A DNA stretch of 64,000 nucleotides from Inquilinus sp. Marseille-Q2685 (GTDB lineage Bacteria; Pseudomonadota; Alphaproteobacteria; DSM-16000; Inquilinaceae), in assembly GCF_916619195.1 (NCBI RefSeq), contig NZ_CAKAKL010000001.1, positions 930,001 through 994,000 on the forward strand, given 5' to 3'. The stretch's first letter is position 1, and each line of letters begins with the position of its first letter. Shown here piece after piece: positions 2,062 to 64,000 of the stretch. Both the position numbers and the translations under genes were made by a program. Under the pieces are notes generated by a model. The model searched no databases and was not told the DNA's origin. It saw only the letters and a program-made list of their open reading frames with translations.

Positions 2062-3087
2062 GTGGCCAGGACGACGCTGCAAGACGTCGCACGGGAAGCC
2101 GGCGTCAGCGTCGCGACCGTCGATCGCGTGCTGAACGGACGCGCCGGCATCCATGCGCGCATGGTCGACCGCGTGAAGGCGGCGGTCGAACGGCTGCAAT
2201 ACGAGCCGGACCGGCTGGCCTCGCGCCTGTCGCGGGCGCGCGATTTCCGCTTCACCGCGATCCTGCCGGCCGGCACCAACGACTTCATGGACAATCTGGA
2301 GCGGGAGTTCCGCACCCTCGCCCGCCGCTACGAGGCCGAGCGGGTGGCGATCGACGTGCTGCAGGTCGACGTCTTCGACGGCGACGCCCTGGCCGAGGCG
2401 CTGGAAAGGCTGCCGGCGGGGCTGGACGGCGTCGCCGTGGTGGCGCTGGACCATCCGGCGGTGGCCGAGGCGCTGAACGCCCTGGCCGCCCGCGGCACCC
2501 AGGTCGTGACGCTGGTCTCCGACCTGCCGAGCGCGAAGCGGCGCCACTATGTCGGCCTCGACAACCATGCCGCCGGCCGCACCGCCGCCAGCCTGCTGGG
2601 CCGCTTTCTCGGTTCCCGCCGCGGCAAGGTCGGGCTGATCGCGGGCTCCTTGCAGCTGCGCGACCATATCGAGCGGCAGTTCGGCTTCGAGCAGGTCATC
2701 GCCCGCGAATACCCCCAGCTTGAGGTGCTGCCGCTGCGCGAGGCGCGGGACGATCCCGGCCGGGTCGAGGCCGCCGCCCGCACCCTGCTGGACGAGAACC
2801 CCGACCTGGTCGGCCTCTACAATGTCGGCGGCGGCCAGCAGGGCGTGGTCGCGGCGCTGGAGGCGACCGGCCGCGCCCGCGACGTCGTCTTCATCGGCCA
2901 CGAGCTGACCGAATTCCCCCGCCGCCACCTGATCCGCGGCACCATCGACGCCGTCATCAACCAGGATGCCGGCCACATGGCGCGCAGCAGCATCCGCGTG
3001 CTGCTGGCCCTGCGCGAGGGCGCGCCGATCGTGCCGGACCAGGAGCGGATCCGGATCGACATCTTCATCCGGGACAACATGCCATGA
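2062..3087 (+). CDS. LacI-family transcriptional regulator of the sugar ABC operon
   Basis: The protein has 341 residues. An N-terminal LacI helix-turn-helix (VSVATVDRVLNGR, about residues 14-26) is followed by a periplasmic-binding-protein-like effector domain of the ribose/xylose type. The GTG at 2062 is preferred over the upstream in-frame start at 1990. GTG-2062 has a strong GAGGGG ribosome site and puts the helix-turn-helix at the N-terminus as usual, and the candidate operator would otherwise lie inside the gene. Its stop overlaps the start of the ABC ATPase gene (ATGA), so it is the first gene of the transporter operon. It probably senses the transported sugar. The sugar cannot be read from the sequence. 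Confidence 0.9.
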   Translation: MARTTLQDVAREAGVSVATVDRVLNGRAGIHARMVDRVKAAVERLQYEPDRLASRLSRARDFRFTAILPAGTNDFMDNLEREFRTLARRYEAERVAIDVLQVDVFDGDALAEALERLPAGLDGVAVVALDHPAVAEALNALAARGTQVVTLVSDLPSAKRRHYVGLDNHAAGRTAASLLGRFLGSRRGKVGLIAGSLQLRDHIERQFGFEQVIAREYPQLEVLPLREARDDPGRVEAAARTLLDENPDLVGLYNVGGGQQGVVAALEATGRARDVVFIGHELTEFPRRHLIRGTIDAVINQDAGHMARSSIRVLLALREGAPIVPDQERIRIDIFIRDNMP

Positions 3088-4631
3088 CCGCCGCCCCCTC
3101 CCCTGCGACGTCCGGGCCGGTGCTGTCCGTCCAGGGCCTCCGCAAGACCTTCGGCACCGTGGCCGTGCTGCAGGAGGTCGGCTTCGACCTGCAGCCGGGC
3201 GAGGTCCACGCCGTGATCGGCGAGAACGGCGCCGGCAAGTCGACGCTGATGAAGATCCTGGCCGGCCATCTGGCGCCGACCGCCGGCGCCATCAGCATGA
3301 ACGGCGCGCCGATCCGCTTCGCCGGCCCGGTCGACGCCGAGCGGCACGGCATCGTGCTGGTGCATCAGGAGATCCTGCTGGCGCCGCACCTGACCGTCGC
3401 CGAGAACCTGTTCCTGGGCCGCGAGCTGCGGCGCGGACTGGCGGTCGACGACCGCGCCATGAACGCCCGCGCGGCCGAAGCGGTGCGGTCGCTGGGGGCG
3501 GAGATCGACCCGGCAGCCATCGTCGCCCAGCTGTCGATCGCCCAGCGCCAGCTGGTGCAGATCGCCCGGGCGCTCCTGGTGCCGCACAGCGTGGTGATCT
3601 TCGACGAGCCGACGGCGTCGCTGACGACGCACGAGACCGACGCGCTGCTCCAGGTCATCCACGACATCCGCGCCAAAGGCGTGGGCGTGCTCTACGTCTC
3701 GCACCGTCTGCCGGAGGTGAAGGCGATCGCCGACCGGGTCACGGTGCTGCGCGACGGAAGGCTGGTCGGCACCCGGCCCGCCGCGGGGCTGGAGCCGCTC
3801 GACATGGCTCGGATGATGGTCGGCCGCGACATGGCCAATCTCTACCCGCCGCGCACCGACGCGCCCGCCGGCGATCCGGTGCTGGAGGTCCGGGGCATGA
3901 CCGTGCCGCGCCATGCCGAGGATGCGTCCTTCACCCTGCGGCGCGGCGAGATCCTGGGCTTCGCCGGGCTGGTCGGCGCCGGCCGGACCGAGTTGCTGGA
4001 GGGCGTGCTGGGGCTGCGCACGGCCCATGGCGAGGTCCGGCGCGACGGCCGGCCGGTGCGCTTCGCCACGGTGCGCGACAGCATGGCGGCCGGCATCGTC
4101 TATCTCAGCGAGGACCGCAAGGGCAAAGGCCTGCTGCTGGCCCAGGACCTGCGCATCAACCTGACCCTGGCGGCGCTGAAGCGCTTCCCCCGCGGGCCGG
4201 TGATCGACACGGCGAAGGAGTGGGCCGAGTTGGACCGGGCCATCGCCGACTTCGACGTGCGCACCCGCCGGAAGGACCTGCTGGCCGGGCAGCTGTCCGG
4301 CGGCAACCAGCAGAAGCTGCTGCTCGGCAAGATGATGCTGCTGGAGCCGGAGATCGTGGTGATCGACGAGCCCACGCGGGGCATCGACATCGGCACCAAG
4401 CAGCAGATCTACCGCTTTGTCGCCGAGCTGGCGACCCAGGGCAAGTCGGTGATCGTGATCTCCTCGGAGATGCAGGAGCTGATCGGCCTGTGCCACCGCA
4501 TCCTGGTGATGCGGTCCGGCCGCATCGTCGGCGAGGTCGCAGGCGAGGCGATGACCGAAGACGAGATCGTGACTTACGCCACCGGCGTGAAAACCATGGA
4601 ACCGGCGCCAGCGCCGATGGGACAGGCATGA
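3084..4631 (+). CDS. Sugar ABC transporter, tandem ATP-binding protein (RbsA/XylG type)
   Basis: At 515 residues this has the normal length of the double-ATPase subunits of CUT2 monosaccharide importers. The first domain has Walker A GENGAGKS (about residues 47-54), the signature-like LSIAQRQLVQIARALL and Walker B VVIFDEPTAS. The second domain has a degenerate P-loop (GLVGAGRTELL), typical for the family, a clear LSGGNQQKLLLGK signature and VVIDEPTRGID. It energises import through the permease encoded next. Both ends overlap neighbours by four bases (ATGA), which suggests translational coupling. Confidence 0.95.
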   Translation: MTAAPSPATSGPVLSVQGLRKTFGTVAVLQEVGFDLQPGEVHAVIGENGAGKSTLMKILAGHLAPTAGAISMNGAPIRFAGPVDAERHGIVLVHQEILLAPHLTVAENLFLGRELRRGLAVDDRAMNARAAEAVRSLGAEIDPAAIVAQLSIAQRQLVQIARALLVPHSVVIFDEPTASLTTHETDALLQVIHDIRAKGVGVLYVSHRLPEVKAIADRVTVLRDGRLVGTRPAAGLEPLDMARMMVGRDMANLYPPRTDAPAGDPVLEVRGMTVPRHAEDASFTLRRGEILGFAGLVGAGRTELLEGVLGLRTAHGEVRRDGRPVRFATVRDSMAAGIVYLSEDRKGKGLLLAQDLRINLTLAALKRFPRGPVIDTAKEWAELDRAIADFDVRTRRKDLLAGQLSGGNQQKLLLGKMMLLEPEIVVIDEPTRGIDIGTKQQIYRFVAELATQGKSVIVISSEMQELIGLCHRILVMRSGRIVGEVAGEAMTEDEIVTYATGVKTMEPAPAPMGQA

Positions 4632-5632
4632 GCACCACCACCTCCACGACATCCGCCGGACGGGGCTTCAAGTTCGACATCCGCACTGCTGCGCCCTTCT
4701 TCGCGCTGGCCGTGCTGATCGTCGTCGGCGCCCTGCTGAACCCGAACTTCCTCAGCGCCGACAACCTGCTGAACGTCGCCACGCGCAGCGCCTTCATCGC
4801 CATCATCGCGGTCGGCGCCACCTTCGTGATCACGGCGGGCGGGCTCGACCTGTCGGTCGGGTCGATGTCGGGCTTCGTCGCCGGCGCCATGATCCTCTTG
4901 ATGAACGCGGCGCCGCTGGGCGACGGGGTCAGCCTGATCGCGCTGGCCATGGCGTCCGCGATCATGCTCGGCGCGCTGTGCGGCCTGGGCAACGGGCTGA
5001 TCACCACGGTCGGGCGGATCGAGCCCTTCATCGTCACCCTCGGCACCATGGGCATCTTCCGCGGCCTCTTGATCTGGCTGGCCGAGGGCGGCTCGATCGC
5101 GATGAAGGCGTCGGACCTGCGGGCGCTGTACCGCCCGGTCTATTTCGGCACCGTGTTCGGCGTGCCCGTGCCGATCCTGGTGATCCTGGCGGTCGGCGCG
5201 CTCGGCGCCTTCGTGCTGTACCGCACCGCCTTCGGCCGCCATGTCCGCGCCGTCGGGTCGAACGAGGATGTCGCCCGCTATTCCGGCATCGCCGTCGACC
5301 GGATCCGCACCCTGACCTACGTCATCCAGGGCGTCTGCGTCGCCGTGGCGGTGCTGGTCTATGTGCCGCGGCTCGGCTCCGCCACCTCGACCACCGGGCT
5401 GTTGTGGGAGCTGCAGGCGATCACCGCCGTGGTGGTCGGCGGCACCGCGCTGCGCGGCGGCGTCGGCCGGATCTGGGGCACGATCTGCGGTGCCCTGATC
5501 CTCGAGGTCGTCGGCAACATCATGACCCTGTCCAACCTGGTCAGCGAATACCTGATCGGCGCGGTGCAGGGCGCCATCATCATCATCGCCATGCTGGTGC
5601 AGCGGTCGCTGCTGCGCCGGCCGGGCACGTAA
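4628..5632 (+). CDS. Sugar ABC transporter permease (RbsC type)
   Basis: This is a 334-residue very hydrophobic protein with about 8-10 membrane helices and the CUT2 permease features ITAGGLDLSVGSMSGF and GRHVRAVGSNEDVARYSGI. It forms the membrane channel of the importer as a homodimer. The ATG at 4628 overlaps the stop of the ATPase gene. The open frame runs further upstream, but there it is only the shadow of the ATPase gene. Confidence 0.95.
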   Translation: MSTTTSTTSAGRGFKFDIRTAAPFFALAVLIVVGALLNPNFLSADNLLNVATRSAFIAIIAVGATFVITAGGLDLSVGSMSGFVAGAMILLMNAAPLGDGVSLIALAMASAIMLGALCGLGNGLITTVGRIEPFIVTLGTMGIFRGLLIWLAEGGSIAMKASDLRALYRPVYFGTVFGVPVPILVILAVGALGAFVLYRTAFGRHVRAVGSNEDVARYSGIAVDRIRTLTYVIQGVCVAVAVLVYVPRLGSATSTTGLLWELQAITAVVVGGTALRGGVGRIWGTICGALILEVVGNIMTLSNLVSEYLIGAVQGAIIIIAMLVQRSLLRRPGT

Positions 5633-10594: not shown

Positions 10595-11953
10595 TTACGC
10601 CGCCGCGGTCTCGATCGTGGCGCAGATCTCGCCGACCAGGGTCTCGATCAGCCCGGCATCCTCGCCCTCGGCCATCACCCGGATCACCGGCTCGGTCCCC
10701 GACTTGCGGATCAACAGCCGGCCGTCCTTGCCCAGCCTGGCCTCGGCCGCGGCGATCGCCTGCTTGACCGGCGCCTGCTCCAGCGGCGACGGCGCGCCCG
10801 GCACCGGAGTGAAGCGCACGCTGCGCAGCCGCTGCGGCATCGGCTCGAACACCCGGAACACCTCGCTGGACGGCCGGCCGGACTGCTGGATCACCGCCAG
10901 CACCTGCAGCGCCGCGATCAGCCCGTCGCCGGTGGTGGCGTAGTCGCTCATGACGATATGGCCGGACTGCTCGCCGCCCAGGTTCAGGCCGCGCTCGCGC
11001 ATGGTCTCGACGACGTAGCGGTCGCCCACGGCGGTGCGGATCAGGCTGATGCCCAGCCCGTCCAGGAACCGTTCCATGCCCAGGTTGGACATCACCGTGG
11101 CGGCCACGGCCGGCTGGGCCAGGCGGTCGCCCGTCGCCCAGTCGCGCGCGATCATCGCCATCAGCTGGTCGCCGTCGATCTGCCGGCCGGTCTCGTCGGC
11201 CATGATCAGCCGGTCGGCGTCGCCGTCCAGCGACAGGCCGAGATGGGCGCCATGGGCCACCACCGCCTGCTGCATCACGTCGGTCGCGGTGGCGCCGCAG
11301 CCCTTGTTGATGTTGAGGCCGTCCGGCGAGACGCCGATGGTCACGACCTCGGCCCCCAGCTCCCACAGCACCGCGGGGGCGACCTTGTAGGCGGCGCCGT
11401 TGGCGCAGTCGACCACCACCTTGAGCCCGTCGAGGCGGAGGCCCTTGGGGAAGGTGTTCTTGGCGTATTCGATGTAGCGGCCGGAGGCGTCGTCCAGCCG
11501 CCGGGCGCGGCCCAGTCGGGCCGGCGGCGCCAGCTGGTCCTCGGTCGGCTGGGCGATGCGGTCCTCGATCGCCTTCTCGACCTCGTCCGACAGCTTGTAG
11601 CCGTCCGGCCCGAACAGCTTGATGCCGTTGTCCTCGAACGGGTTGTGCGAGGCCGAGATCATCACCCCGAGATCGGCGCGCAGCGACCGGGTCAGCATGG
11701 CGATGGCCGGGGTCGGGATCGGGCCGACCAGGGTGACGTCCATGCCCGCGCCGATGAAGCCCGCGGTCAGCGCCGGCTCCAGCAGATAGCCGGACAGGCG
11801 GGTGTCCTTGCCGATCACCACCAGGTGGCGGTGGTCGCCGCGGCGGAACTGCGCCGCCGCCGCCGTCGCCACCTTCAGCGCCGTCTCAGCCGTCATCGGT
11901 TCGACATTCGCGCGACCGCGGATGCCGTCGGTCCCGAACAGCTTGCGCGTCAT
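10595..11953 (-). CDS. glmM: Phosphoglucosamine mutase
   Basis: GlmM interconverts glucosamine-6-phosphate and glucosamine-1-phosphate on the route to UDP-GlcNAc for peptidoglycan and LPS. The protein has 452 residues, the family length. It begins [16 protein letters not shown]. The phosphoserine loop is [17 protein letters not shown] (about residues 97-113) and the metal-binding loop is LDGDADR. The sugar-binding GEQSGHIV and the C-terminal [14 protein letters not shown] phosphate loop are also present. The start codon directly follows the folP stop, with no intergenic base, as in the widespread folP-glmM pair. Confidence 0.97.
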
Positions 11954-13252
11954 CTAATCCCCTGCCTCCAGCTCCGTCCCCACCTGCAGCGCCGACCACA
12001 CGGCCAACGCCTGCCGCGTCTCCGCGACATCATGTACCCGCAGAATCTGCACCCCTTGGGCCACGCCGTACAACCCCGCTGCGATCGACCCCGATACCCG
12101 CCCCTTCGGATCCGCGGCGCCGGAGAGGGTGCCGATGAAGCGCTTGCGCGACACGCCCAGCAGCACGGCGCAGCCGAGTCCGTGCAGCAGAGAGAGACCA
12201 CGCAAAAGCGGCAGATTGTGGGTCAGCGATTTCTTGCCGAAGCCGATGCCGGGATCGACCGCGATGCGGCCGGGCGGGATGCCGGCGGCCGCGCAGGCCG
12301 CGACCCGCTCCTCCAGCCAATCGAACACGTCGAGCAGGACGTCGTCGTAGACGGGGTTCTCCTGCATCGTCCGCGGCTCGCCCCGGATGTGCATCAGCAC
12401 CACCGGGCAGCCGGCGCGGGCGACGACGCCGAGGCTGGCGGGATCGCCGGTCAGGCCGGTGACGTCGTTGACGATCCGGGCGCCGGCGGCCAGCGCCGCC
12501 TGCATCACCGTCGCATGGCGGGTGTCGACCGATACCGTCAGGCCGCGATGGGCCAGGTCACGGATCACCGGCTCGATCCGGGCAATCTCCTCCGCCGGCG
12601 ACACCGGGGCGGATCCCGGCCGCGTGGATTCGCCGCCGATGTCGAGGATCTCGGCCCCCGCCTCGGCCAGGGCCAGGCCGTGCGCGACCGCGCGGCGGGC
12701 GTCGGCGAAGTCGCCGCCGTCGGAGAAGCTGTCGGGGGTGACGTTGACGATGCCCATCAGCCGCGGCCGGTCGAGATCGAGCCCGGCGAAGGCCGGACGC
12801 GGACGGCTCAGCCGGTCGAGCCGATCGTCGACCGCGGCGCCAAGGCCGTGGCGCCCGGCCCAGCGGCGGAGCGTGGAGAGATCGGCGACCGCGCGGACGG
12901 TTTCCGACGACGGATAGGCCGGCGCCACCCCCTCACCCGGAACCGCTGACGCGGTTCCGACCTCTCCCCGGGGGAGAGGTGACGGTTCCCCTCTCCTCGG
13001 GGAGAGGGAGGGGCCCGTTCGCGTTGGCGAACGGGAGGGTGAGGGGGACTCCCGCCGCAGGATCAGCTCGACCCGGTCGAAGGACAGCGGCCCGCCGGCG
13101 AGCGGCAGCGCGCCGGGCGCGGCGTCGGCCAGGCCGGGAGGGCGCAGATACAGTCGCACCCCGGGCTTTCCGGCCCAGGGCGCGAAATCGTCGGAGAAGA
13201 AAACGGCACGGGCCGCGTCGGAACGCGGCCCGTGGTCGGTCTGGGTCGTCAC
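11954..13252 (-). CDS. folP: Dihydropteroate synthase with an in-frame repeat insertion
   Basis: FolP joins p-aminobenzoate to the pterin pyrophosphate in folate synthesis and is the sulfonamide target. The catalytic half carries LMGIVNVTPDSFSDGG, DIGGESTRPGS, DVTGL and the C-terminal GVSRKRFIG. The start is taken as GTG at 13252, 20 bases after ftsH, because the longer frame upstream is antisense-like shadow of ftsH. It gives 432 residues, well above the usual 270-300. The excess is an N-terminal region of about 150 residues, which includes a proline/serine/arginine-rich segment encoded by a palindromic repeat (12928-13047). That repeat is probably a non-essential loop. The exact start is less sure than the identity. 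Confidence 0.92.
   Translation of the reverse strand: MTTQTDHGPRSDAARAVFFSDDFAPWAGKPGVRLYLRPPGLADAAPGALPLAGGPLSFDRVELILRRESPSPSRSPTRTGPSLSPRRGEPSPLPRGEVGTASAVPGEGVAPAYPSSETVRAVADLSTLRRWAGRHGLGAAVDDRLDRLSRPRPAFAGLDLDRPRLMGIVNVTPDSFSDGGDFADARRAVAHGLALAEAGAEILDIGGESTRPGSAPVSPAEEIARIEPVIRDLAHRGLTVSVDTRHATVMQAALAAGARIVNDVTGLTGDPASLGVVARAGCPVVLMHIRGEPRTMQENPVYDDVLLDVFDWLEERVAACAAAGIPPGRIAVDPGIGFGKKSLTHNLPLLRGLSLLHGLGCAVLLGVSRKRFIGTLSGAADPKGRVSGSIAAGLYGVAQGVQILRVHDVAETRQALAVWSALQVGTELEAGD
12928..13047. repeat. Palindromic repeat pair inside folP
   Basis: The element starts CCCCTCACCC and ends GGGTGAGGGG. It contains CCTCTCCCC-GGGGGAGAGG and CCCCTCTCC-GGAGAGGG inner stems and a GTTCGC/GCGAAC stem. 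It is closely related to the intergenic element at 52781-52916, sharing CCCTCACCCGGA-CCGC and CCGACCTCTCCC blocks. It is about 40 codons long and keeps the folP frame open. Confidence 0.8.
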
Positions 13253-53649: not shown

Positions 53650-55566
53650 TCAGGCCCGGATGACGCCCGTGGCCGGAGCGTCAAGGCCGAGCGCCGCCGC
53701 GGCGGTGGCGACGATGTCCTGCGCCGACAGCGCCGCCTCGGCATATTGCAGCTCCGGCTTGTCGTGGTCCTGGAACCGGTCCGGCAGCGTCATCGGCCGA
53801 ACCTTCAGCCCGTTGTCCAGCAGGCCGGCGCGGGCCAGGTGATGCAGCACGATGCTGCCGAAGCCGCCTTCGGCCCCCTCCTCCACCGTGATCAGCACGG
53901 CGTGGTGGCGGGCCAGCTGACCGACCAGCTCGGTGTCGAGCGGCTTGGCGAAGCGGGCGTCGGCGACGGTGGTCGACAGGCCCATCCCGCCCAGGGCATC
54001 GGCCGCCGCCAGGCATTCCTGCAGCCGGGTGCCGTAGCTGAGCAGCGCGATGGTCGTGCCTTCGCGCAGCACGCGGCCCTTGCCGAGCGCCAGCGGCCGG
54101 CCGCGGGCCGGCAGCTCGACGCCGACGCCGTCGCCGCGGGGGTAGCGGAAGGCAGAGGGCCGGTCGTCCAGCGCGGCAGCGGTGGCCACCATATGCACCA
54201 GCTCGGCCTCGTCGGCCGCGGCCATCAGCACCATGCCGGGCAGGCAGCCGAGATAGGAGATATCGAAGGCGCCGGCATGGGTGGCGCCGTCGGCGCCGAC
54301 CAGCCCGGCCCGGTCGATGGCGAAGCGCACCGGCAGGTGCTGGATCGCCACGTCGTGCACCACCTGGTCGTAGGCGCGCTGCAGGAAGGTCGAATAGATC
54401 GCGCAGAACGGCCTGAAGCCTTCGGTCGCCATGCCCGCCGCGAAGGTCACCGCATGCTGCTCGGCGATGCCGACGTCGAAGCTGCGGTTCGGGAAGCGCT
54501 GGGCGAACTTGTCAAGGCCGGTGCCCGAGGGCATGGCGGCGGTGACGGCGACGATGCGCTCATCCTCCTCCGCCTCCTGGATCAGGGCCTGGGCGAAGAC
54601 GCCGGTGTAGCTCGGCGCGTTGCTCTTCGGCTTGGACTGGGCGCCGGTGATGACGTCGAAGCGGGTGACGCCGTGATACTTGTCCGGCGCCGCCTCGGCC
54701 GGGCCGTAGCCCTTGCCCTTCTGGGTGACGACATGGACCAGCACCGGGCCGTCATCGGCGTCGCGGACATTCTCGAGCACCGGCAGCAGGTGGTCGAGAT
54801 TGTGCCCGTCGATCGGGCCGACATAGTAGAAGCCCAGCTCCTCGAACATGGTGCCGCCGGTGACGAAGCCGCGGGCGTATTCCTCGGCCCGCTTGGCGGC
54901 GCGCGCCACCGGCTTCGGGAACACCGCGGTGACGTCGCGCATCAGGTGCCGCAGCGAGCGGTAGGAGCGCGAGGAGATCAGCCGCGACAGATAGGCGCTC
55001 ATGGCGCCGACCGGCGGGGCGATCGACATGTCGTTGTCGTTGAGGATGACGACCAGGCGGCTCTTCAGTGCGCCGGCGTTGTTCATCGCCTCATAGGCCA
55101 TGCCGGCGCTCATCGCGCCGTCGCCGATCACGGCGACGACTCGGAAGTCCTCGCCCTTCAGGTCCCGCGCCACGGCCATGCCGAGGCCGGCCGAGATCGA
55201 GGTCGAGCTGTGCGCCGCGCCGAACGGGTCGTACTCGCTCTCCGACCGCTTGGTGAAGCCGGACAGGCCGCCGCCCTGGCGCAGGGTGCGGATGCGATCG
55301 CGCCGCCCGGTCAGGATCTTGTGCGGATAGGCCTGGTGGCCGACATCCCAGATCAGCTTGTCCCGCGGCGTGTCGAACACCCGGTGCAGGGCGACGGTGA
55401 GCTCGACCACGCCGAGCCCGGCGCCGAGATGGCCGCCCGTGGTCGAGACCGCGTCGATGGTCTCGGCCCTCAGCTCGTCGGCGACCTGCTTCACGTCGGA
55501 AGCCGGCAGGAGTCGGAGGTCTTCGGGGGTATGGATGGTGTCGAGCAGCGGCGTGACTGGCTTCAT
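53650..55566 (-). CDS. dxs: 1-deoxy-D-xylulose-5-phosphate synthase
   Basis: Dxs condenses pyruvate and glyceraldehyde-3-phosphate with thiamine diphosphate, the first step of the MEP isoprenoid pathway. The 638 residues show [19 protein letters not shown], the TPP motif [18 protein letters not shown] (about residues 148-165) with [21 protein letters not shown] and the C-terminal [18 protein letters not shown]. No ispA or xseB is adjacent upstream, unlike in many relatives. Confidence 0.97.
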
Positions 55567-56007
55567 TCAGCTTCGCTTTCGGCAGGCTTGATCCAGCGGT
55601 TCGGGCGGCATCGGCGTCGGTCTCTCTTGCACCGTGACGGCAGACATTCGGCCGAAGCACCCAACAATTTTCCTGCCCGGTAGTCTTTCCAGCACTATAG
55701 GGGAGCGATGGCGCGATCAAGAAAATCCGGTGACGGGCCCATGACCGGATGCCGATTTGCCACAGGCTGAGGCGGCTGCGCCACGTGTGGCGGCGGATGC
55801 TGTTTTCCACTGTTGTCCCGCCGATCTCTCTGCTCAAGCCCAGGAAGACGCCGGCGCAGCTCGCGAGCCCGTGGAACCGGATAAAGTCCGATTCCGTCCT
55901 CGACATGATCCCTCAAAAACGCAAGCGCCTCCTCCCCTCCCGCCGCGCGGGAAAGGCAAGAGCCATACGAACCTGTCAGCAGAAGCATCTTGTGGCGGCG
56001 CCAGCGC
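55567..56007. other. 441-base gap upstream of dxs
   Basis: The gap includes a decayed copy of the CTCTCCC-type repeat (around 55930-55960: TCCCGCCGCGCGGGAAAGGC). No gene is supported. The promoter of dxs should lie in the first 150 bases, but no clear -35/-10 was found. Confidence 0.5.
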
Positions 56008-56718
56008 TCAACTGCTGTCCGGCTTCGGAGGACTGGATGGCAGACGGCCGGCGTCGAGCGTGTCCGGCTGTTCGGGCCGGTCGTCCCCGGCGTCGGAAGC
56101 CATGGCGACGGCAGCCGTGCCGTCACCGGACGAGCCGGCGTTGTCGTTGGCCCCGAGGACGTCGTCCCAGCCCTGCGGCAGCCGGCTCGGGTCCAGCCGG
56201 CGGCCGAGCCAGCGGCAGACCTCCCGCACGAACTCGCCGGCCGGCAGGGTGTCGAGCTGCACGTCCAACACCTCGTCCTCGGTCAGCCGCTCCCACACCT
56301 CGGACCGCAGGCGCTCGGTCTCCTCGGGATCGACGGCCGCAGCAAGATCCGCGGCCTCGGCCGCCCCGACCGCCTCGACCACCGCCTGCACGGCCTGCTC
56401 GCGCCGCCGGCGGCGGCGCTCCAGCGCCCCGGACGCCTCGCCTTCGGCCCGGCGGTGCAGGTAGTCGCCCCGGATCCGCTCGGCCATGGCGATCGACAGC
56501 CGGATCGAGCGCGACAGGCGCGACTGCATCAGCGGGAAATCGGACGGCGTCTCCGACCCCGCCGGGGTCGCCTGCTGCTGCCGCTCGGTCAGCCGCTTGC
56601 AGCGGGCGTCGATCTCGACCACCTCGCGCAGCTTCTCCAGCGCCCATCCCGTCCACTTCAGATCGGGATCGGACGGCCGGGCCTCGCCGGAATCAGCATC
56701 GGTCTGCGCCATGGTCAT
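56008..56718 (-). CDS. Unrecognised protein with an Arg-rich helical segment
   Basis: The protein has about 236 residues: helical, highly charged (WALEKLREVVEIDARCKRLTERQQQ; ERRRRRREQAVQAVVEAVGAAEAADL), with an acidic Ser/Asp tail. No family or signal peptide is visible. The true start is unclear: several ATGs near 56710-56736, none with a good ribosome site. It is upstream of the tRNA-Ser promoter, in the opposite direction. High GC and consistent codon use suggest it is a real vertically inherited gene. Confidence 0.6.
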   Translation of the reverse strand: MTMAQTDADSGEARPSDPDLKWTGWALEKLREVVEIDARCKRLTERQQQATPAGSETPSDFPLMQSRLSRSIRLSIAMAERIRGDYLHRRAEGEASGALERRRRRREQAVQAVVEAVGAAEAADLAAAVDPEETERLRSEVWERLTEDEVLDVQLDTLPAGEFVREVCRWLGRRLDPSRLPQGWDDVLGANDNAGSSGDGTAAVAMASDAGDDRPEQPDTLDAGRLPSSPPKPDSS

Positions 56719-56801
56719 GGAACATATCATGAACATACTTGCAAATTAAAGCAACTGGTATCGTGTTCGGCGCCCGAATCCGTCCAGGCCGCGGGCCGTG
56801 A

Positions 56802-56830
56802 TTGACAAGCCCCGCCCGCCCCCTTAAGAA
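56802..56830 (+). promoter_or_regulatory. Sigma-70-type promoter of tRNA-Ser
   Basis: A perfect TTGACA at 56802-56807, 17 bases of spacer and TAAGAA at 56825-56830 lie 30 bases before the tRNA. Transcription would start near 56837. Confidence 0.75.
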
Positions 56831-56859
56831 CCCCGGACCGAGCGGCACCGCCGCTGGAC

Positions 56860-56951
56860 GGAGGGGTGGCCGAGTGGCTGAAGGCAGCGGTTTGCTAAAC
56901 CGTCCACGGGGGAAACCCCGTGCCCGGGTTCGAATCCCGGTCCCTCCGCCA
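56860..56951 (+). tRNA. tRNA-Ser, anticodon GCU
   Basis: The 92-base class II tRNA has the acceptor stem GGAGGGG/TCCCTCC (one G-U), D-arm GGCCGAGTGG, anticodon loop TTGCTAA reading AGC/AGU, a long variable arm typical of serine (CCACGGGGGAAACCCCGTG), T-arm GGGTTCGAATCCC, discriminator G and an encoded CCA. tRNA-Ser genes are frequent integration sites. The restriction island begins about 480 bases downstream. Confidence 0.97.
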
Positions 56952-57434
56952 TCCTATGCCTGCGGCTTCGGATGGCAGGCCATCTGATCCGGCAGCCAAC
57001 GCCGGCAGGCTCGCTCGGCCTTGGAACAGCGGTTTTGTAAGCCGGAGGTTGCGGTTTTCCCATATCCGGCTTGTTCTGTGTCATCGACCCGCATTCGTGG
57101 GCTGCTGAAATCCAGAGCGTCCACCTTCGAGTACCAGTATCGGCCCAGCTCCGATTCTCGGGACGGCCTTCCGCAGGAACAAGCCCCCCACTGTATTGTG
57201 AAGCGACCGATCGGCGCCGAACTGGCGCTTCGTGTCGCCCTGTGTCACAAATCGAGCGAATTTGAGGGAGGGGAATTCCGTTCATGCATTTGCTCGGCTT
57301 GAAGACTATTTTCCGCATAAGCGCGGCTGTCGGTCGTCCGTCGTAAGAGCGAGACCCCGGAGCCGCAGGCGGTGCGTGCACCGATGGTGCCCACGGCCTG
57401 CGCAAGCCCATTCCGATTCTGCTTCGACAGGCAC
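56952..57434 (+). other. Gap between tRNA-Ser and the restriction island
   Basis: No gene is supported in these 483 bases. A short stem CCATCC/GGATGG lies just after the tRNA. The stretch 57027-57063 resembles the middle of a tRNA-Thr(UGU), suggesting a decayed tRNA-derived scar. No integrase or duplicated tRNA-Ser 3' end was found. It should contain the promoter for the restriction operon. Confidence 0.5.
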
Positions 57435-60400
57435 ATGAGCCAGTTTTTCGAGTCACCGATCCTCAACTCGCCCTACGAGGCGCCGGGCCGCCATTGGGAG
57501 CTCGACGCCAACGGCCAGCCGACGACGCTGATCGTGCCGCGCCGGCGCCCCAGCGCGCTGGTCTCGCCGATCCCGAAGCCGAAGAAGGTCAGGGGCAAGG
57601 CGGTGCAGCCCGACCTGCTGGCCGATGCCGACACCGGCCAGGAATACAACCCCACCGAGGTCATCAACGGCATCCGCTCGGCGGTGGAAAGCTGGCGCAC
57701 GCTGCCCGAGAGCCAGTGGCAGGTGACGCCGTCTACGGCCCGGCTGCTGCGTCACTGGCGCAGCCACGAGTTCGCCAACCAGCGCCCCTTCTTCTGCCAG
57801 ATCGAGGCGGTCGAGACGGTGATCTGGCTGACCGAGGTGGCGCCGCGCAACTCCTCCCAGGGGCGCCGCTTCTGGACGCATCTGGACGCTGCCAACGCCG
57901 CGTCGAACCCCGAACTGCTGCGCCTGGCGCTGAAGCTGGCGACGGGCGCGGGCAAGACCACCGTCATGGCGATGCTGATCGCCTGGCAGACGGTGAACGC
58001 GGTGCGCCACCCCAATGCGCGGCGCTTCTCCAAGGGCTTCCTGGTGGTGACGCCCGGGATCACGATCAAGGACCGGCTGCGGGTCCTGCTGCCCAACGAT
58101 CCCGACAGCTACTACAAGTCGCGCGAGATCGTGCCCGAGGACATGCTGCCCGACCTCGGCCGCGCCAAGATCGTCATCATCAATTATCACGCCTTCAAGA
58201 AAAAGGACGAGCTGCCGCTGAACAAGGTACAGCAGGCGGCGCTGCGCGCCACGCCCAGGCCCGAGAGCGATGGTGCGATGATCCGCCGCGTGGCGGGCGA
58301 ACTGATGGGGCTGAAGAACATCGTCGTGCTGAACGACGAGGCGCATCACTGCTATCGCGAGCGCCCGCTGACGCCGGAGGAGCAGGCCGCGCTGAAGGGC
58401 GACGACCTCGCCGCGGCGAAGCAGAACAACGAGGCCGCACGGCTGTGGATCTCCGGCCTCGAGGCAGTGAAGCGCGAGCTCGGCCTGCAGATGGTCTACG
58501 ACCTGTCGGCCACGCCCTTCTTCCTCAAGGGCTCGGGCTACCGCGAGGGGTCGCTGTTCGGCTGGGTGATGAGCGACTTCTCGCTGATGGATGCGATCGA
58601 GTGCGGCATCGTCAAGCTGCCGCGCGTGCCGATCATGGACAACGTGCCGGGCGGCGACACGCCCCTGTTCCGCAACCTGTGGGAGCATGTCGGCAAGCAC
58701 CTGCCGAAGAAGGGGCGCGCCAGCGAGAAGGGGCTGGACCCGCAGAAGCTGCCGAACCAGCTGCTGACCGCGATCGACGCGCTCTACGGCCATTACGAGA
58801 AGACCCATAAGCTGTGGCGGGAGGCCGGGATCAGCGTCGACCCGGTCTTCATCGTGGTGTGCAACAACACCGCCACCTCCAAGCTGGTGCACGACTACAT
58901 CGCCGGCTACGTCCGCGACAACGGCGACGGCACCGAGACGCCGGTCGCCGGCCGCTGCCCGCTGTTCCGCAACTTCGATCCGGACGGCGCCGCTCTGCCG
59001 CGCATGCGCACCCTGCTGATCGACAGCCAGCAGCTGGAATCGGGCGAGGCGATCTCGGCCGAGTTCAAGGAGGCCGCGAAGGAGGAGATCGCCCGCTTCA
59101 AGGAGGAGCTGATCCAGCGCACAGGCGACCGCAGGGCAGCCGAGGCGGTCGGCGACGACGCGATCCTGCGCGAGGTGATGAACACCGTCGGCCGCAAGGG
59201 CGCGCTGGGCGAAGGCATCCGCTGCGTCGTCTCGGTGTCGATGCTGACCGAGGGGTGGGACGCCAACACCGTGACCCATGTGCTGGGCGTCCGCGCCTTC
59301 GGCACCCAGCTGCTGTGCGAGCAGGTGATCGGCCGGGCGCTGCGCCGCCAATCCTACGCCCTGCAACCGGACGGCAAGTTCAAGGTCGAATACGCCGACG
59401 TGCTGGGCATCCCCTTCGACTTCACCGCCCAGCCGGTGGTGTCGAAGCCGTCGAAGCCGGACGACATGGTGCGCGTCCATGCCGTCAGCCCTGAGCGCGA
59501 CGCGCTGGAGATCCGTTTCCCGCGGGTCGAAGGCTATCGCGCCGAGCTGCCGCAGGACACCTTGACCGCCGCATTCACGGCCGACAGCACGCTGGAGCTG
59601 ACGCCCGAGCTGGTCGGGGCGACCGAGACGATCAACGCCGGCATCATCGGCGAGCAGGCGGACCTGACGCTCGAACACCTGGCCGAGCAGCGCCCGGCAA
59701 CGATCGCCCTCAAGCTTGCCGTGCGCATCCTGCAGCGGCACCTGACCGACGCCGACAAAGTGCCGCAGCAGCATCTGATCATGCCGCTGAAGTCGATCGT
59801 CCGCCGCTGGATGACGGATCACCTGGTCTGTTCGGGCGGCACCTATCCGGCGCAGCTGCTCTACTACAACATCGCCGACCGGGCGGCGGAGCGCATCATG
59901 GCCGCGATCACCCGCGGCCAGGAGGGCGGCGGGGTCGTCAAGGTGATGCTGGATCCTTATAACCCGACCGGCTCGACCCGGCATGTCGGCTTCATGACCT
60001 CGCGCGACCGGTTCCAGACCGCGCCCGACAAATGCCACGTCAATTATTGCGTCCTGGACAGCGACTGGGAGGCCGAGTTCTGCCGGGTGGCGGAGCTGCA
60101 CCCGCGCGTCCTGGCCTATGTGAAGAACCACAATCTCGGCTTCGAGGTGCCCTACCAGTGCGGCGGCGAGGTGCGGCGCTATCGCCCCGACTTCATCGTC
60201 CGGGTGGATGACGGCCGCGGCTCCGACGATCCGCTGAACCTCGTCATCGAGACCAAGGGCTATCGCAAGGAAGACGCCAAGGATAAGGCGGCGACGATGG
60301 AGACCTATTGGGTGCCCGGCGTGAACCGCCTCGGCACCTATGGCCGCTGGGCGTTCAGGGAATTCAAGGAGGTCTGGACGATCCAGAGCGAGTTCGAGGC

Positions 60401-60461
60401 GGTGATCCGCAAATGGCTGGATCAGGTGACGGGCGTGACGGTGACGGAGGCGGCGGCGTGA
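57435..60461 (+). CDS. SF2 helicase/restriction endonuclease subunit (Res-like, BPTD_3080-type)
   Basis: The protein has 1008 residues and begins MSQFFESPILNSPYEAPGRHW, as do relatives of the BPTD_3080-type restriction enzymes. Helicase motifs: Walker A LATGAGKTTVMA (about 168-179), motif II LNDEAHH (about 300), motif III DLSATPFF (about 355), and motif VI CEQVIGRALRRQ (about 630). The C-terminal PD-ExK nuclease has RPDFIVRV (about 917) and LVIETKGY (about 936). It would translocate on and cut unmethylated DNA. Its stop overlaps the next gene (GTGA). The true start is taken as 57435 over an in-frame ATG at 57372, because the alternative N-terminus is not family-like. Confidence 0.92.
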   Translation: MSQFFESPILNSPYEAPGRHWELDANGQPTTLIVPRRRPSALVSPIPKPKKVRGKAVQPDLLADADTGQEYNPTEVINGIRSAVESWRTLPESQWQVTPSTARLLRHWRSHEFANQRPFFCQIEAVETVIWLTEVAPRNSSQGRRFWTHLDAANAASNPELLRLALKLATGAGKTTVMAMLIAWQTVNAVRHPNARRFSKGFLVVTPGITIKDRLRVLLPNDPDSYYKSREIVPEDMLPDLGRAKIVIINYHAFKKKDELPLNKVQQAALRATPRPESDGAMIRRVAGELMGLKNIVVLNDEAHHCYRERPLTPEEQAALKGDDLAAAKQNNEAARLWISGLEAVKRELGLQMVYDLSATPFFLKGSGYREGSLFGWVMSDFSLMDAIECGIVKLPRVPIMDNVPGGDTPLFRNLWEHVGKHLPKKGRASEKGLDPQKLPNQLLTAIDALYGHYEKTHKLWREAGISVDPVFIVVCNNTATSKLVHDYIAGYVRDNGDGTETPVAGRCPLFRNFDPDGAALPRMRTLLIDSQQLESGEAISAEFKEAAKEEIARFKEELIQRTGDRRAAEAVGDDAILREVMNTVGRKGALGEGIRCVVSVSMLTEGWDANTVTHVLGVRAFGTQLLCEQVIGRALRRQSYALQPDGKFKVEYADVLGIPFDFTAQPVVSKPSKPDDMVRVHAVSPERDALEIRFPRVEGYRAELPQDTLTAAFTADSTLELTPELVGATETINAGIIGEQADLTLEHLAEQRPATIALKLAVRILQRHLTDADKVPQQHLIMPLKSIVRRWMTDHLVCSGGTYPAQLLYYNIADRAAERIMAAITRGQEGGGVVKVMLDPYNPTGSTRHVGFMTSRDRFQTAPDKCHVNYCVLDSDWEAEFCRVAELHPRVLAYVKNHNLGFEVPYQCGGEVRRYRPDFIVRVDDGRGSDDPLNLVIETKGYRKEDAKDKAATMETYWVPGVNRLGTYGRWAFREFKEVWTIQSEFEAVIRKWLDQVTGVTVTEAAA

Positions 60462-62323
60462 GCTTCGATACGACGAAGACGAACCTCAAGGATCTCCTGG
60501 AGGATATCGACGAGGGCAAAATCCAGCTGCCGGAGTTCCAGCGCGATTACGTGTGGAACGAGGACGATGTTTGCAGCCTGATCGCCAGCATCGCGAAGGG
60601 CTTCCCGGTGGGCGCGCTTCTGATGCTCGAGCGCGGCGGAGACGTTGCGTTCAAGCCACGAGGCATCGAAGGCACGAAGGTCGAGGGTATTGAACCCGAG
60701 CTTCTGCTCCTCGACGGCCAGCAGCGGATGACCTCCCTGTATAAGACCATCTATTCCAAAGAGCCTGCCCGCGTCCGGACAGCGAAGGGCCAGGTGGTCG
60801 AGCGCCACTTCTATCTCAGGATTCCTGCCACGCTCGGCCCCCTGGTCGAATTCGAAAGTGCGATCGAAACCGTTCCGGCCGACCGGATCCGTCGTGTCAA
60901 CTTCGCCAAGGAGATCGAGCTCGACCTCTCCTCGATCGAACGTGAATACGAGAATCTCCTGTTTCCCCTCGACCAGGCTCTCGATCCCGTCGATTGGATC
61001 TTCGCCTGCCAGGAGTATTGGGCCGACCGGGATTCGACAGTCAGATCGCTGCTGACGGATTTCCGGAAATCCGTCCTCAGCCCAATTCAATCTTACGCGA
61101 TGCCGGTCATCAGGCTGTCCAAGGCGAATAGCCGGGAAGCGATCTGCACGGTCTTCGAGAAGGTCAACGTCGGAGGCAAGAAGCTCGACGCCTTCGAACT
61201 CGTGACGGCGATCTATGCCGCGTCCAGCTTCGACCTTCGGGAAGACTGGGCCGGCACGAAAGAAAAGCACGGACGCCTGGGCCGCATGAGAGCGTATCTC
61301 CCTGCTAAGGGCGTCTTCGCGGATCTGGCCAGCACCGACTTCCTTCAGGCCTGCACGATTCTTCATACCCTGGACCTCCGCAACACGGCCATTGCCGAGG
61401 GGAAGGCCGGCAAGGAGCTTCCGCCGGTCAGTTGCACGCGCGAAGCCCTGCTGGGCCTGCCCTTGTTGGCCTATCGCAAGCATGCCGATGCGGTCGAGAA
61501 GGGGTTTGTCGAAGCGGCCAAGTTCCTCAACGAGCAGAAGATCCTGTGGGGACGGGACTTGCCCTATCCGCCGCAGATGGTGGCGATGGCGGCGCTGTTC
61601 GCGCTGCTTCCGGCGGAGCGAAGGACTGCCGTTGCCTATGCTCGCCTCGCCGAATGGTACTGGTCGGGCGTCCTGGGGGAATTCTACGGATCGGCGACGG
61701 AAACCAAGATCGCCCGGGATGTACCCGACCTTCTGGCGTGGCTGGAGGGCGGACCACAGCCCCGCACGATCGCCGAGACGTTCTTCCAGGTCTCCCGCCT
61801 GGATACGATGCGGTCACGGCTCTCAGCGGCCTACAAGGGATTTCACGCCCTGCTCATGCGGCGCGGCTGCCGGGACTTCATCAGCGGCAAGGGTGTGGAG
61901 GTGATGACGGTCTATGCCGATGCGCTGGACATCCACCACATCTTCCCGCGGCGGTGGTGCGAGGATCGGAAGATTCCGCCATCTGTCTACAACAGCATCG
62001 TCAACAAGACCGCCCTTTCGGCCGCATCGAACCGGACGATCGGCGGGGATGCACCCAGCCGGTATCTCGCCCGCATCGAGACCAGGTCCGGAATCTCCTC
62101 CGATGATCTCGATGAGATTCTGCGATCGCACCTGATCGATCCCGCTGCGTTGCGCGCCGATGACTTCGAAGCCTTCTACAAGGCCCGCAAAGCTGCGCTG
62201 GCCAGCCTCGCTGCTGAAGCACAAGGCAAGCCGGTGATGGTCGATGCTGCGCCGCCCGAAGGCTTCGCCGATGACGACGGAATGACCGTCGACGAAGAAG
62301 AATCGCTGGAAGAGGTCGCCTGA
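60458..62323 (+). CDS. DUF262 and DUF1524-like (GmrSD-type) protein
   Basis: The 621-residue protein starts with GTG overlapping the Res stop. The N-terminal DUF262 domain has LPEFQRDYVWNEDD and the nucleotide-binding-like LLLDGQQRMTSLY (about 85-97). The C-terminal part has DIHHIFPRRWCEDR (about 491) followed by NKTALSAASNRTIG, a His-Me-finger/HNH-like (DUF1524) core. The two halves together resemble GmrSD-type modification-dependent restriction enzymes, which cut modified DNA. Here the gene is tightly placed between the restriction and modification subunits. The exact role in this operon is inferred. Confidence 0.88.
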   Translation: MSFDTTKTNLKDLLEDIDEGKIQLPEFQRDYVWNEDDVCSLIASIAKGFPVGALLMLERGGDVAFKPRGIEGTKVEGIEPELLLLDGQQRMTSLYKTIYSKEPARVRTAKGQVVERHFYLRIPATLGPLVEFESAIETVPADRIRRVNFAKEIELDLSSIEREYENLLFPLDQALDPVDWIFACQEYWADRDSTVRSLLTDFRKSVLSPIQSYAMPVIRLSKANSREAICTVFEKVNVGGKKLDAFELVTAIYAASSFDLREDWAGTKEKHGRLGRMRAYLPAKGVFADLASTDFLQACTILHTLDLRNTAIAEGKAGKELPPVSCTREALLGLPLLAYRKHADAVEKGFVEAAKFLNEQKILWGRDLPYPPQMVAMAALFALLPAERRTAVAYARLAEWYWSGVLGEFYGSATETKIARDVPDLLAWLEGGPQPRTIAETFFQVSRLDTMRSRLSAAYKGFHALLMRRGCRDFISGKGVEVMTVYADALDIHHIFPRRWCEDRKIPPSVYNSIVNKTALSAASNRTIGGDAPSRYLARIETRSGISSDDLDEILRSHLIDPAALRADDFEAFYKARKAALASLAAEAQGKPVMVDAAPPEGFADDDGMTVDEEESLEEVA

Positions 62324-64000
62324 TGGCCAAGTCCCCCCTCGAAGTCGAGGCGCTGACCCACAAGGAGGCGACCCGCCGCAATGCGCCGACGGCGGAGCTG
62401 GAGCCGTTCGTCGATGACGAAATCAAGCGGCCGATCCTGGCGGTCTATCGGCGGCGCGACCCCGATCTCGACCCCCAGCTGGTTTGGCGTGGGAAGGATG
62501 TGGCGGACTGGTCGGACCTGGTGGTCAACGCGCCGCCGCTCTACATCCAGGAGAAGATCCACCCCAAGGCGATCATCGAGGACCTGAAGCGTGCCGCCAG
62601 GCGCAAGGCCGAACCGGAGCCGATGGCCGACCTGTTCGCCGACTTCAACGGCCTGGACCCCGAGCAGCGCACCGAGTTCTACCAGCACGACCAGCACTGG
62701 TCGAACCGGATGATCCTGGGCGATTCGTTGCAGGTGATGGCGTCGCTGGCGGAGCGCGAGGGGCTGAAGGGGCAGGTGCAGTGCATCTATATCGACCCGC
62801 CCTACGGCATCAAGTTCAACTCCAACTTCCAGTGGTCGACCACCAGCCGCGACGTAAGGGACGGCAAGGCCGACCACCTGACGCGCGAGCCTGAGCAGGT
62901 GAAGGCATTCCGCGACACCTGGGCGGACGGCATCCACTCCTATCTCACCTATCTGCGCGACCGGCTGACCGTGGCGCGCGACCTGCTGTCAGAGAGCGGC
63001 TCGATCTTCGTCCAGATCGGCGACGAAAACGTCCATCGCGTGCGGGCGCTGATGGATGAGGTGTTTGGGAATGAAAACTTTGTTTCTCAGATACAGATGA
63101 AAAAGTCTGGCGGCGCTACCAGCTCCTTCTTGCCTGGCATTACCGATTTCTTGTGTTGGTTTGCGAAAGATAGATCAAAACTCAAATATAGAACTATCTA
63201 TCAGGCTGATGGATCACGTCGGGATGAGGATTATGGACTTATTGAGTTTGGCATCGATCAGTGGGCAACGGCGACCGAGGCCGAGGCAAATGGTCTTAGT
63301 GGTCGGGCACTACAGCTCATTACGCTGACCAGCCAACGGCAGGGGCGTGACACGTCTGAAGCTTCGGCAATGGGATATGCCTTTCCCTTTCGAGGCATCG
63401 ACTATCGACCTTCGAAAGGCCGGGGTTGGACGACGACCAAGGAAGGTATGAAGCGGCTTGACTTAGCCTGCCGAATTGCACGGTCCGGGTCGAACATTCG
63501 ATTGAAGAAGTATCTGGACGACGCGCCAGGTCAGGTGGTGACTGATTTCTGGGATGACATAATCGCCGGTGCCGGGCGGGATAAGGCATACGTGGTCCAG
63601 ACTGGAGCGGCGGTGATCCAACGCTGTATCCTGATGACCACCGATCCCGGCGACCTCGTGCTCGATCCTACTTGTGGGTCAGGCACGACGGCTTACGTCG
63701 CCGAGCAATGGGGGCGGCGGTGGATCACGATCGACACCAGCCGGGTGGCGCTGGCGCTCGCCCGGGCGCGGATCATGGGTGCGCGCTATCCCTGGTATCT
63801 GCTGGCCGACAGCCGCGAGGGGCAACTGAAGGAGGCCGAGGTCACACGCACGCCGCCTCGCGACGCCCCGACCCATGGCCGCATCCGCCAGGGCTTCGTC
63901 TACAGGCGCGTGCCGCACATCACGCTGAAATCCATCGCCAACAACGCCGAGATCGACACGATCTGGGAGCGGTATCAGCAGACGCTGGAGCCGCTGCGCG
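62323..64000 (+). CDS. DNA methyltransferase (type III Mod-like), 3' end beyond window
   Basis: At least 559 residues are visible, with the frame open to the window end. The order of motifs, catalytic DPPYGI (about residues 158-163) before the AdoMet motif LDPTCGSGTTAYVAEQWG (about 447-464), marks the beta class, typical of Mod subunits and N6-adenine/N4-cytosine enzymes. The segment between about residues 246 and 430 should include target recognition. Its start shares one base with the DUF262 stop (TGATG). Coding is continuous through a markedly less GC-rich stretch (63060-63600). Confidence 0.93.
   Translation, partial: MAKSPLEVEALTHKEATRRNAPTAELEPFVDDEIKRPILAVYRRRDPDLDPQLVWRGKDVADWSDLVVNAPPLYIQEKIHPKAIIEDLKRAARRKAEPEPMADLFADFNGLDPEQRTEFYQHDQHWSNRMILGDSLQVMASLAEREGLKGQVQCIYIDPPYGIKFNSNFQWSTTSRDVRDGKADHLTREPEQVKAFRDTWADGIHSYLTYLRDRLTVARDLLSESGSIFVQIGDENVHRVRALMDEVFGNENFVSQIQMKKSGGATSSFLPGITDFLCWFAKDRSKLKYRTIYQADGSRRDEDYGLIEFGIDQWATATEAEANGLSGRALQLITLTSQRQGRDTSEASAMGYAFPFRGIDYRPSKGRGWTTTKEGMKRLDLACRIARSGSNIRLKKYLDDAPGQVVTDFWDDIIAGAGRDKAYVVQTGAAVIQRCILMTTDPGDLVLDPTCGSGTTAYVAEQWGRRWITIDTSRVALALARARIMGARYPWYLLADSREGQLKEAEVTRTPPRDAPTHGRIRQGFVYRRVPHITLKSIANNAEIDTIWERYQQTLEPLR

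Follow-up and report, generated by a model that had tools for sequence, protein, structure and literature searches.

What is a gene for a GmrSD-like, putative type IV nuclease doing between the restriction and modification genes of a type III-like system? The question is raised by a locus in Inquilinus sp. Marseille-Q2685, in a window of 64,000 nucleotides (nt) that corresponds to positions 930001-994000 of contig C1 in this 7.29-Mb genome. Features beyond the window are given in window coordinates (a position in locus L003 plus 55999). Judged from its sequence, the locus is a single overlapping run of genes for a type III-like Res/Mod pair, a RelE-like/UvrD helicase, and a DUF262-HNH protein with intact active-site motifs. 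With moderate confidence, we favor the explanation that an anti-phage operon of five genes was acquired horizontally, its type III-like core and RelE-like/UvrD helicase being joined by an embedded DUF262-HNH enzyme of the BrxU type.

The operon sits as an insert immediately 3' of a tRNA-Ser(GCT) gene (56860-56951, plus strand, ARAGORN). Its five same-strand genes each overlap the neighboring gene by 1-4 nt according to the open reading frame (ORF) calls. The first, identified by ORF, domains, and motifs as a BPTD_3080-family Res, lies at 57435-60461; the longest ORF is 57372..60461 with a GTG start, and an ATG in the same frame, at 57435, is in keeping with the start of the family, as the NCBIfam model enters the long ORF at residue 26. 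The DUF262-HNH gene (60458-62323) sits between Res, with a 4-nt ATGA overlap, and Mod, with a 1-nt overlap. Mod (62323-65136, of which the window holds 62323..64000) encodes 937 amino acids (aa). An earlier note on this window had described the gene order, these overlaps, and the linkage to tRNA-Ser, and all of them stand. Its title had the operon "fuse" the pair with a GmrSD-like protein, which is correct for the shared operon but not for the proteins, which are separate. More genes had been anticipated past 64000, and two are present, a 176-aa gene and a UvrD-type gene. A scan for sigma-70-type promoters found 0 sites, which equals the chance expectation, and terminator candidates were no commoner than chance.

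Res contains ResIII and RE_endonuc domains in the Pfam search, matches the NCBIfam BPTD_3080 restriction endonuclease family with 1279 bits (cut-off 800), and possesses the motifs GAGKT, DEAH, SATP, QVIGRALR, and PDF..ETKG. Mod has an N6_N4_Mtase domain, matches the PADLOC model MTase_III over nearly its whole length (1223 bits), and matches Mod structures, including that of EcoP15I (phmmer, E = 4.4e-12). Its DPPY motif lies ahead of DPTCGSGT, which is the beta order of amino-methyltransferases. A Res with superfamily 2 (SF2) helicase and PD-(D/E)xK parts and a beta-class Mod are features of type III restriction-modification (RM) systems, and the earlier assignment of both proteins as type III-like is borne out. 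These motifs suggest that Mod places N6-methyladenine (m6A) or N4-methylcytosine (m4C), on the exocyclic amino group; type III systems that make m4C exist (PMC8259958). Among the five operon proteins, Pfam and PADLOC listed no PglZ or BrxC (BREX) and no DrmA or DrmB (DISARM), and Pfam, PADLOC, and NCBIfam listed no dnd or ssp modification genes, the PADLOC matches being the best 25 of 52 models for Mod and the best 25 of 32 for UvrD.

The middle protein has a Pfam GmrSD_N/DUF262 domain at residues 9-252 (103.9 bits, cut-off 33.2; positions follow the P0003 numbering, in which the first Met is lacking). The DGQQR motif at residues 85-89 is kept in all 107 full-length homologs, and an HHIFP-type motif, HHIFP at residues 492-496 here, in 106 of the 107. 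Residues H492, H493, N515, and N524 are invariant across 72 rows. The best PADLOC models are PDC-M55C and HEC-05. The HNH region is modeled with high confidence and the whole chain models like BrxU, which is the best fit in Foldseek, clearly ahead of the next folds, SspE and DndI. The HHIFP motif, the invariant residues, and the whole-length match to BrxU point to a C-terminal DUF1524-type His-Me (HNH) nuclease domain. The motifs that the earlier note had proposed to check are present, and its description of the protein as GmrSD-like holds. That note also considered that the protein had lost its nuclease function and now serves Res and Mod as a regulator or specificity factor. Its operon position and tight overlap would fit such a role, but the conserved active-site motifs and the confidently modeled HNH region argue against a loss of nuclease function, which we reject, and Res and Mod occur without DUF262 in 17 of 35 loci with Res first and in 19 of 22 genomes. 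We consider such a role very improbable.

Embedding a GmrSD-type gene in a methylating defense operon is already known, and the earlier view that the arrangement had not been described is not supported. BrxU lies inside the BREX operon of the pEFER locus, where modified and unmodified phage DNA were shown to be targeted in a complementary way (PMC8565348). Like the protein described here, for which it is the best structural match, BrxU is a single-chain DUF262 plus HNH protein inside the operon of an amino-methylating system. It differs in its host system, BREX rather than type III-like, in its sequence (14-18% identity in structural alignments), and in its DHIYP motif, the first residue of which is H here. 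TgvAB are likewise GmrSD-family genes embedded in an RM operon, a type I operon on VPI-2 of Vibrio cholerae in which RM hits unmodified DNA and the embedded genes hit phages with hypermodified DNA (PMC11411939); two proteins and a type I host are involved there, one protein and a type III-like host here. ResIII was already listed as enriched near GmrSD in 2015, with type I contexts frequent (PMC4619093), and BREX carries auxiliary effectors (PMC12839542). HEC-05, one of the best PADLOC models of the middle protein, and HEC-06 are GmrSD-like genes embedded in operons of a different host system, Hma (described in PMC11411939). SspE and DndI are two-domain DUF262 plus HNH nucleases in modification operons (PMC10952713, PMC11662687), but they sense phosphorothioate, and no dnd or ssp modification genes were seen in the operon here. 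Type III RM systems share Res and a beta-class Mod with this locus, and some have a third conserved helicase-like gene, which is of the SF2 type and 5' of mod (PMC8259958); here Res comes first and the extra helicase is of the superfamily 1 (SF1) UvrD type, has a RelE-like N-terminus, and is encoded 3' of Mod. In the literature covered, which leaves out most subscription journals, nothing was found that names BPTD_3080 or that joins at least three of type III restriction-modification, UvrD, DUF262, and restriction operon. The type III-like version of the embedding looks new.

The operon could work as follows. Mod would mark host DNA on an exocyclic amino group as m6A or m4C, and Res with Mod would cut DNA without the host mark, as the families predict. 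The DUF262-HNH protein would cycle at the expense of nucleoside triphosphates and cut DNA with other, phage-made modifications, most likely modified cytosine; T-even-type modified cytosines are our best guess by analogy with BrxU and TgvAB. Phages that escape the Res/Mod arm through modified DNA would then be caught by the DUF262-HNH arm, and the host would be spared because its own Mod mark is no substrate of that enzyme. The earlier note had foreseen that self-harm is avoided if the middle enzyme ignores the host mark, and the same solution appears to be right.

Methyltransferase signatures near DUF262 homologs bear on this arrangement. The signature patterns, a loose one in the case of C5 methyltransferases, were run without a positive control. 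A same-strand amino-methyltransferase signature is present in 36 of 91 neighborhoods (one doubtful), within 2 kb in 28 and within 100 nt in 16, and none was found in the other 55, some of which are on short contigs. No C5 signature occurs within 9 kb in any of the 91, and the Inquilinus genome has no PF00145 match. Neighborhoods with amino but not C5 signatures fit an enzyme that ignores amino marks. A different possibility is that the DUF262-HNH protein behaves like SspE and DndI and reads the operon's own methyl mark, as a stimulator or a release signal, so that two effectors would answer to one self/non-self code. DUF262 senses modification in SspE and DndI (PMC10952713, PMC11662687), these are the next folds after BrxU, 16 of the 91 loci have a same-strand amino-methyltransferase signature within 100 nt, and the distances of Res and DUF262 are correlated (0.81; see below). 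However, BrxU is clearly the better structural fit, the kin of this protein pair with type I, type IIG, DISARM-like, and type III-like systems, which are expected to mark different sites, 55 of the 91 neighborhoods lack the signature, and linkage to Res was gained or lost at least seven times on the DUF262 tree, a quick tree with some long rows. Recognition of the operon's own mark is, in our estimate, unlikely.

How firmly the DUF262 gene belongs to its operon can be judged from its distribution. An even draw of 385 alphaproteobacterial genomes contains 22 with a Res above the BPTD_3080 cut-off and six with a DUF262 homolog (E ≤ 1e-20), at seven places. The homolog lies directly after Res at three of these places (the Inquilinus genome, G159, and G169) and elsewhere at four, so that it is missing from the Res-adjacent position in 19 of the 22 genomes. 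The E. coli genomes have no near match. A sample of public contigs is biased toward near kin because only the best 80 of at least 544 relatives were kept; with contexts labeled by hand, DUF262 is linked to Res in 10 of the 80 and accompanied by type I genes in 13, and in one further contig, L153, it is beside a distant Mod-Res pair. PADLOC confirms type I methyltransferase, specificity, and restriction genes for the cluster representatives. Other contexts are type IIG (L080), DISARM (L093 and plasmid L018), and DrmMI-like (L109, its near copy L110, and L140); no partner was recognized in the remaining contigs, many of which are short. Plasmid records comprise 40 with Res, 21 with DUF262, and one with both, the search for DUF262 being negative in 39 of the 40. 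The record with both, NZ_CP131131.1 from Shinella, has the order Res-DUF262-x-Mod-x-UvrD, and in Gemmobacter and Pseudomonas avellanae DUF262 is missing from a set of Res, Mod, and UvrD. The three-gene neighborhood Res-DUF262-Mod, which the earlier note proposed to search for, recurs in relatives, and most of the 22 genomes with Res have no DUF262 there. A fixed specificity or regulatory subunit is not supported: DUF262 is absent from this position in most of these genomes and was not found in most plasmid records with Res, and related proteins belong to other systems or have no recognized partner, a pattern close to the one that the earlier note said would refute its proposal.

Five contigs of the viral class carry related loci, either through phage carriage or as misclassed host DNA. 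The order is Res-DUF262-Mod-x-UvrD in L161, L163, L164, and L162, the last with Mod split over two ORFs and UvrD truncated where the contig ends, and L184 has Res-Mod-UvrD with no DUF262 of the same clade between. A DUF262 homolog with 43% identity over 96% of the query is present at 2982-4784 of OR850898.1 (Salmonella phage S.Kent 1-2-1, 6 kb).

The history of DUF262 can be traced on two trees. The DUF262 tree has 107 rows, was built by a quick method, and contains several long rows; seven homologs that were not full length and two copies (L067 and L162) were left out, contexts were labeled by hand, and L114, which has an HsdR-like cluster member, was kept as "other." The Res-linked label changes nine times on this tree (mean after shuffling, 15.2, with none of 500 shuffles as low), and starred branches force at least seven of these changes; the type I label changes 10 times, at least nine of them forced in the same way. 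On the Res tree (39 rows), the presence of DUF262 changes five times, at least four of them forced (mean after shuffling, 12.7, again with none of 500 as low). From these counts it follows that DUF262 stays with a lineage for some time and has been acquired or lost on several occasions. The trees, the presence and absence in genomes, and the single record with DUF262 among the 40 Res plasmid records reject an obligate third subunit.

Another possibility is that the DUF262 gene is a type IV gene in its own right that hitch-hikes on the translation of the operon, having ended up by chance in a defense-gene sink with no functional benefit from its position. Unrelated genes fill the same gap in relatives, and DUF262 kin are also found without a recognized partner. 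The G+C content at third codon positions (GC3) is 0.777 for DUF262, against 0.928 for Res and 0.918 for UvrD (Mod, 0.84; 176-aa gene, 0.69). In 14 relatives, however, the DUF262 gene averages only 0.03 under its core and is lower in 10; weighed against this mean, the drop of 0.12 in the present gene is a weak sign of separate origin. Weighing against chance landing are the position of DUF262 directly 3' of Res in all 16 other Res-linked rows checked (from a 4-nt overlap to a 29-nt gap), over several gains or losses, and the finding that TgvAB alone protected 10- to 100-fold less than the whole cluster against several phages (PMC11411939). We judge a hitch-hiker unlikely.

The fifth gene appears to be tied to the core more closely than DUF262 is. 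The 176-aa orphan gene (65133-65663) overlaps Mod by 4 nt and is overlapped by 4 nt by the gene for the 672-aa RelE-like/UvrD-type helicase (65660-67678), both on the plus strand and beyond the window. UvrD domains are present in this protein and in all 23 aligned relatives, and a HigB-like RelE model matches seven of the 24 at E ≤ 0.01. In 20 alphaproteobacterial loci the gene is present in 10, absent from the stretch seen in seven, and cut off by a contig end inside Mod in three; it is common but not universal among loci with Res and Mod. In 14-15 DUF262-bearing loci, pairwise distances correlate at 0.93 for Res-Mod, 0.96 for Res-UvrD, and 0.95 for Mod-UvrD, and those of DUF262 at 0.81 with Res, 0.78 with Mod, and 0.83 with UvrD; the Res-Mod, Res-UvrD, Res-DUF262, and Mod-UvrD values each exceed all of 5000 permutations. 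UvrD therefore acts as core and DUF262 as a looser, non-random partner. The 24 proteins (L003 9661-11679 in the case of Inquilinus) also share a conserved RelE/HigB-like N-terminus of about 105 residues, a toxin-type fold joined to an SF1 helicase. The model of a UvrD homolog is weak (predicted local distance difference test, pLDDT, 72.4; predicted template modeling score, pTM, 0.41) and served only for the N-terminal strand and helix order.

Several observations weigh against the favored explanation of an embedded, BrxU-type enzyme for modified phage DNA. Pfam DUF1524 (PF07510) has no match in the middle protein at E ≤ 0.01. Foldseek template modeling scores to BrxU are only 0.36-0.40, with a root-mean-square deviation of about 20 Å, perhaps because the domains are placed differently in the interlocked dimer. 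The clustering of the Res-linked label and the distance correlations of DUF262 leave room for functional pairing. Finally, C5 methyltransferases are not depleted, being found in 20 of 35 DUF262-clade genomes (the Inquilinus genome plus those of 34 of the 80 contig loci, hand-picked from several phyla) versus 132 of 385 in the class draw; the limits were E = 0.001 and 1e-8, respectively, and all 20 also pass 1e-8. A general 5-methylcytosine (5mC) target is therefore unlikely, and avoidance of C5 methyltransferases was rejected as support for one since the trend is the opposite.

The Res-Mod gap itself holds varied genes. Among 41 loci listed with Res and Mod, Res is first in 35, and their gap holds DUF262 in 18, another same-strand ORF (≥80 aa) without DUF262 in eight, and neither in nine. 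The 18 are inflated because many loci came from the DUF262 search, and 16 remain once L067, identical to L084, and L162, nearly identical to L161, are dropped. Genes in the Mod-UvrD gap cluster at E ≤ 1e-3 into small groups, each with one to three homologs; the 176-aa gene has no homolog among them at that limit. Eleven of 20 cargo proteins scanned match Pfam (HNH_2, HepT-like, Gp49 of the RelE type, NYN, DUF2971, DUF4145, REase-ARP, AAA, subtilase, SNF2, and DUF429), and nine match nothing at E ≤ 0.01. As their sequences indicate, the DUF262-HNH gene is one of several cargo genes in the Res-Mod gap among relatives, and the embedded enzyme is probably swappable. Res-Mod-UvrD might even be a defense platform in which the effectors of both cargo gaps (BrxU-like here; HNH, HepT, RelE-type, NYN, PD-(D/E)xK, AAA plus subtilase, or SNF2 in relatives) can be exchanged and are triggered by the core, not merely co-expressed with it, for instance once DNA that has got past restriction is encountered by the RelE-like/UvrD protein. 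In such a scheme restriction would act first and a back-up effector second; we regard such triggering as quite unlikely.

Two cargo arrangements were also seen. A REase-ARP-type nuclease (Pfam match from L088) adjoins DUF262 in L088 (11900-13256), L089 (12326-14128), L103 (7976-9296), and L113, and in the first three a 112-aa repeat protein follows 3' of it, a two-gene cargo that travels with DUF262. In L058 (3126-6419) an AAA ATPase and subtilase pair lies between Mod and UvrD; the AAA protein has a counterpart in L015 (37%), and PADLOC identifies the L093 member of the cluster as IetA.

The insertion can be seen by comparison with the site in same-genus genomes. The gene at 53650-55566, left of tRNA-Ser, is one that we take to be dxs, and an RTX repeat gene (67751-70972), outside the operon, is next after UvrD. 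At all four same-genus loci compared, the dxs-like gene and tRNA-Ser are kept without the operon, as the RTX side usually is; a fifth genome (G420) also has the tRNA region, and none of the five has a Mod homolog at E ≤ 1e-30. At the empty site of G422 (L206) homology stops at 56982 and restarts at 67681, the two points being separated by about 150 nt, and in G419 (L207) it stops at 56952 and restarts at 67701, with a spacing of about 490 nt. In G423 (L205), where operon and RTX gene are both missing, the sequence after the tRNA corresponds to positions from 71063 onward. In G421 (L204) the RTX side comes after a tRNA that is inverted: tRNA-Ser beside the RTX gene (11798-11965) lies reversed relative to its flanks, a hint that this spot was rearranged more than once. 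Five genes and a leader of about 0.45 kb make up the insert. No integrase gene is among them, and no exact match of at least 14 nt to the tRNA was found in the roughly 96 kb searched for exact copies of its 3' end; an integrase-borne tRNA island is supported on neither count. Horizontal acquisition of the operon is part of the favored explanation and is held with the same moderate confidence as the whole. Between the dxs-like gene and tRNA-Ser, at about 55790-56790, lies a repeated element of about 1 kb that encodes a 242-aa minus-strand ORF (56008-56736). With 55700-57000 as the query, 20 matches were obtained in the Inquilinus genome, the query itself and a tRNA hit included, with one 95% copy at C1:1220487; same-genus genomes have many copies of 66-92%, and the element is missing from the tRNA-Ser sites of all four relatives fetched.

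These features would extend the theme of an embedded type IV enzyme, described for BREX, type I RM, and Hma, to a type III-like family, and they show that close DUF262-HNH kin move between several methylation systems. The UvrD-type protein tracks Res and Mod as closely as Res tracks Mod and is a candidate third subunit. The two gaps, with their varied and often nuclease- or toxin-like genes, offer a cheap hunting ground for new effectors.

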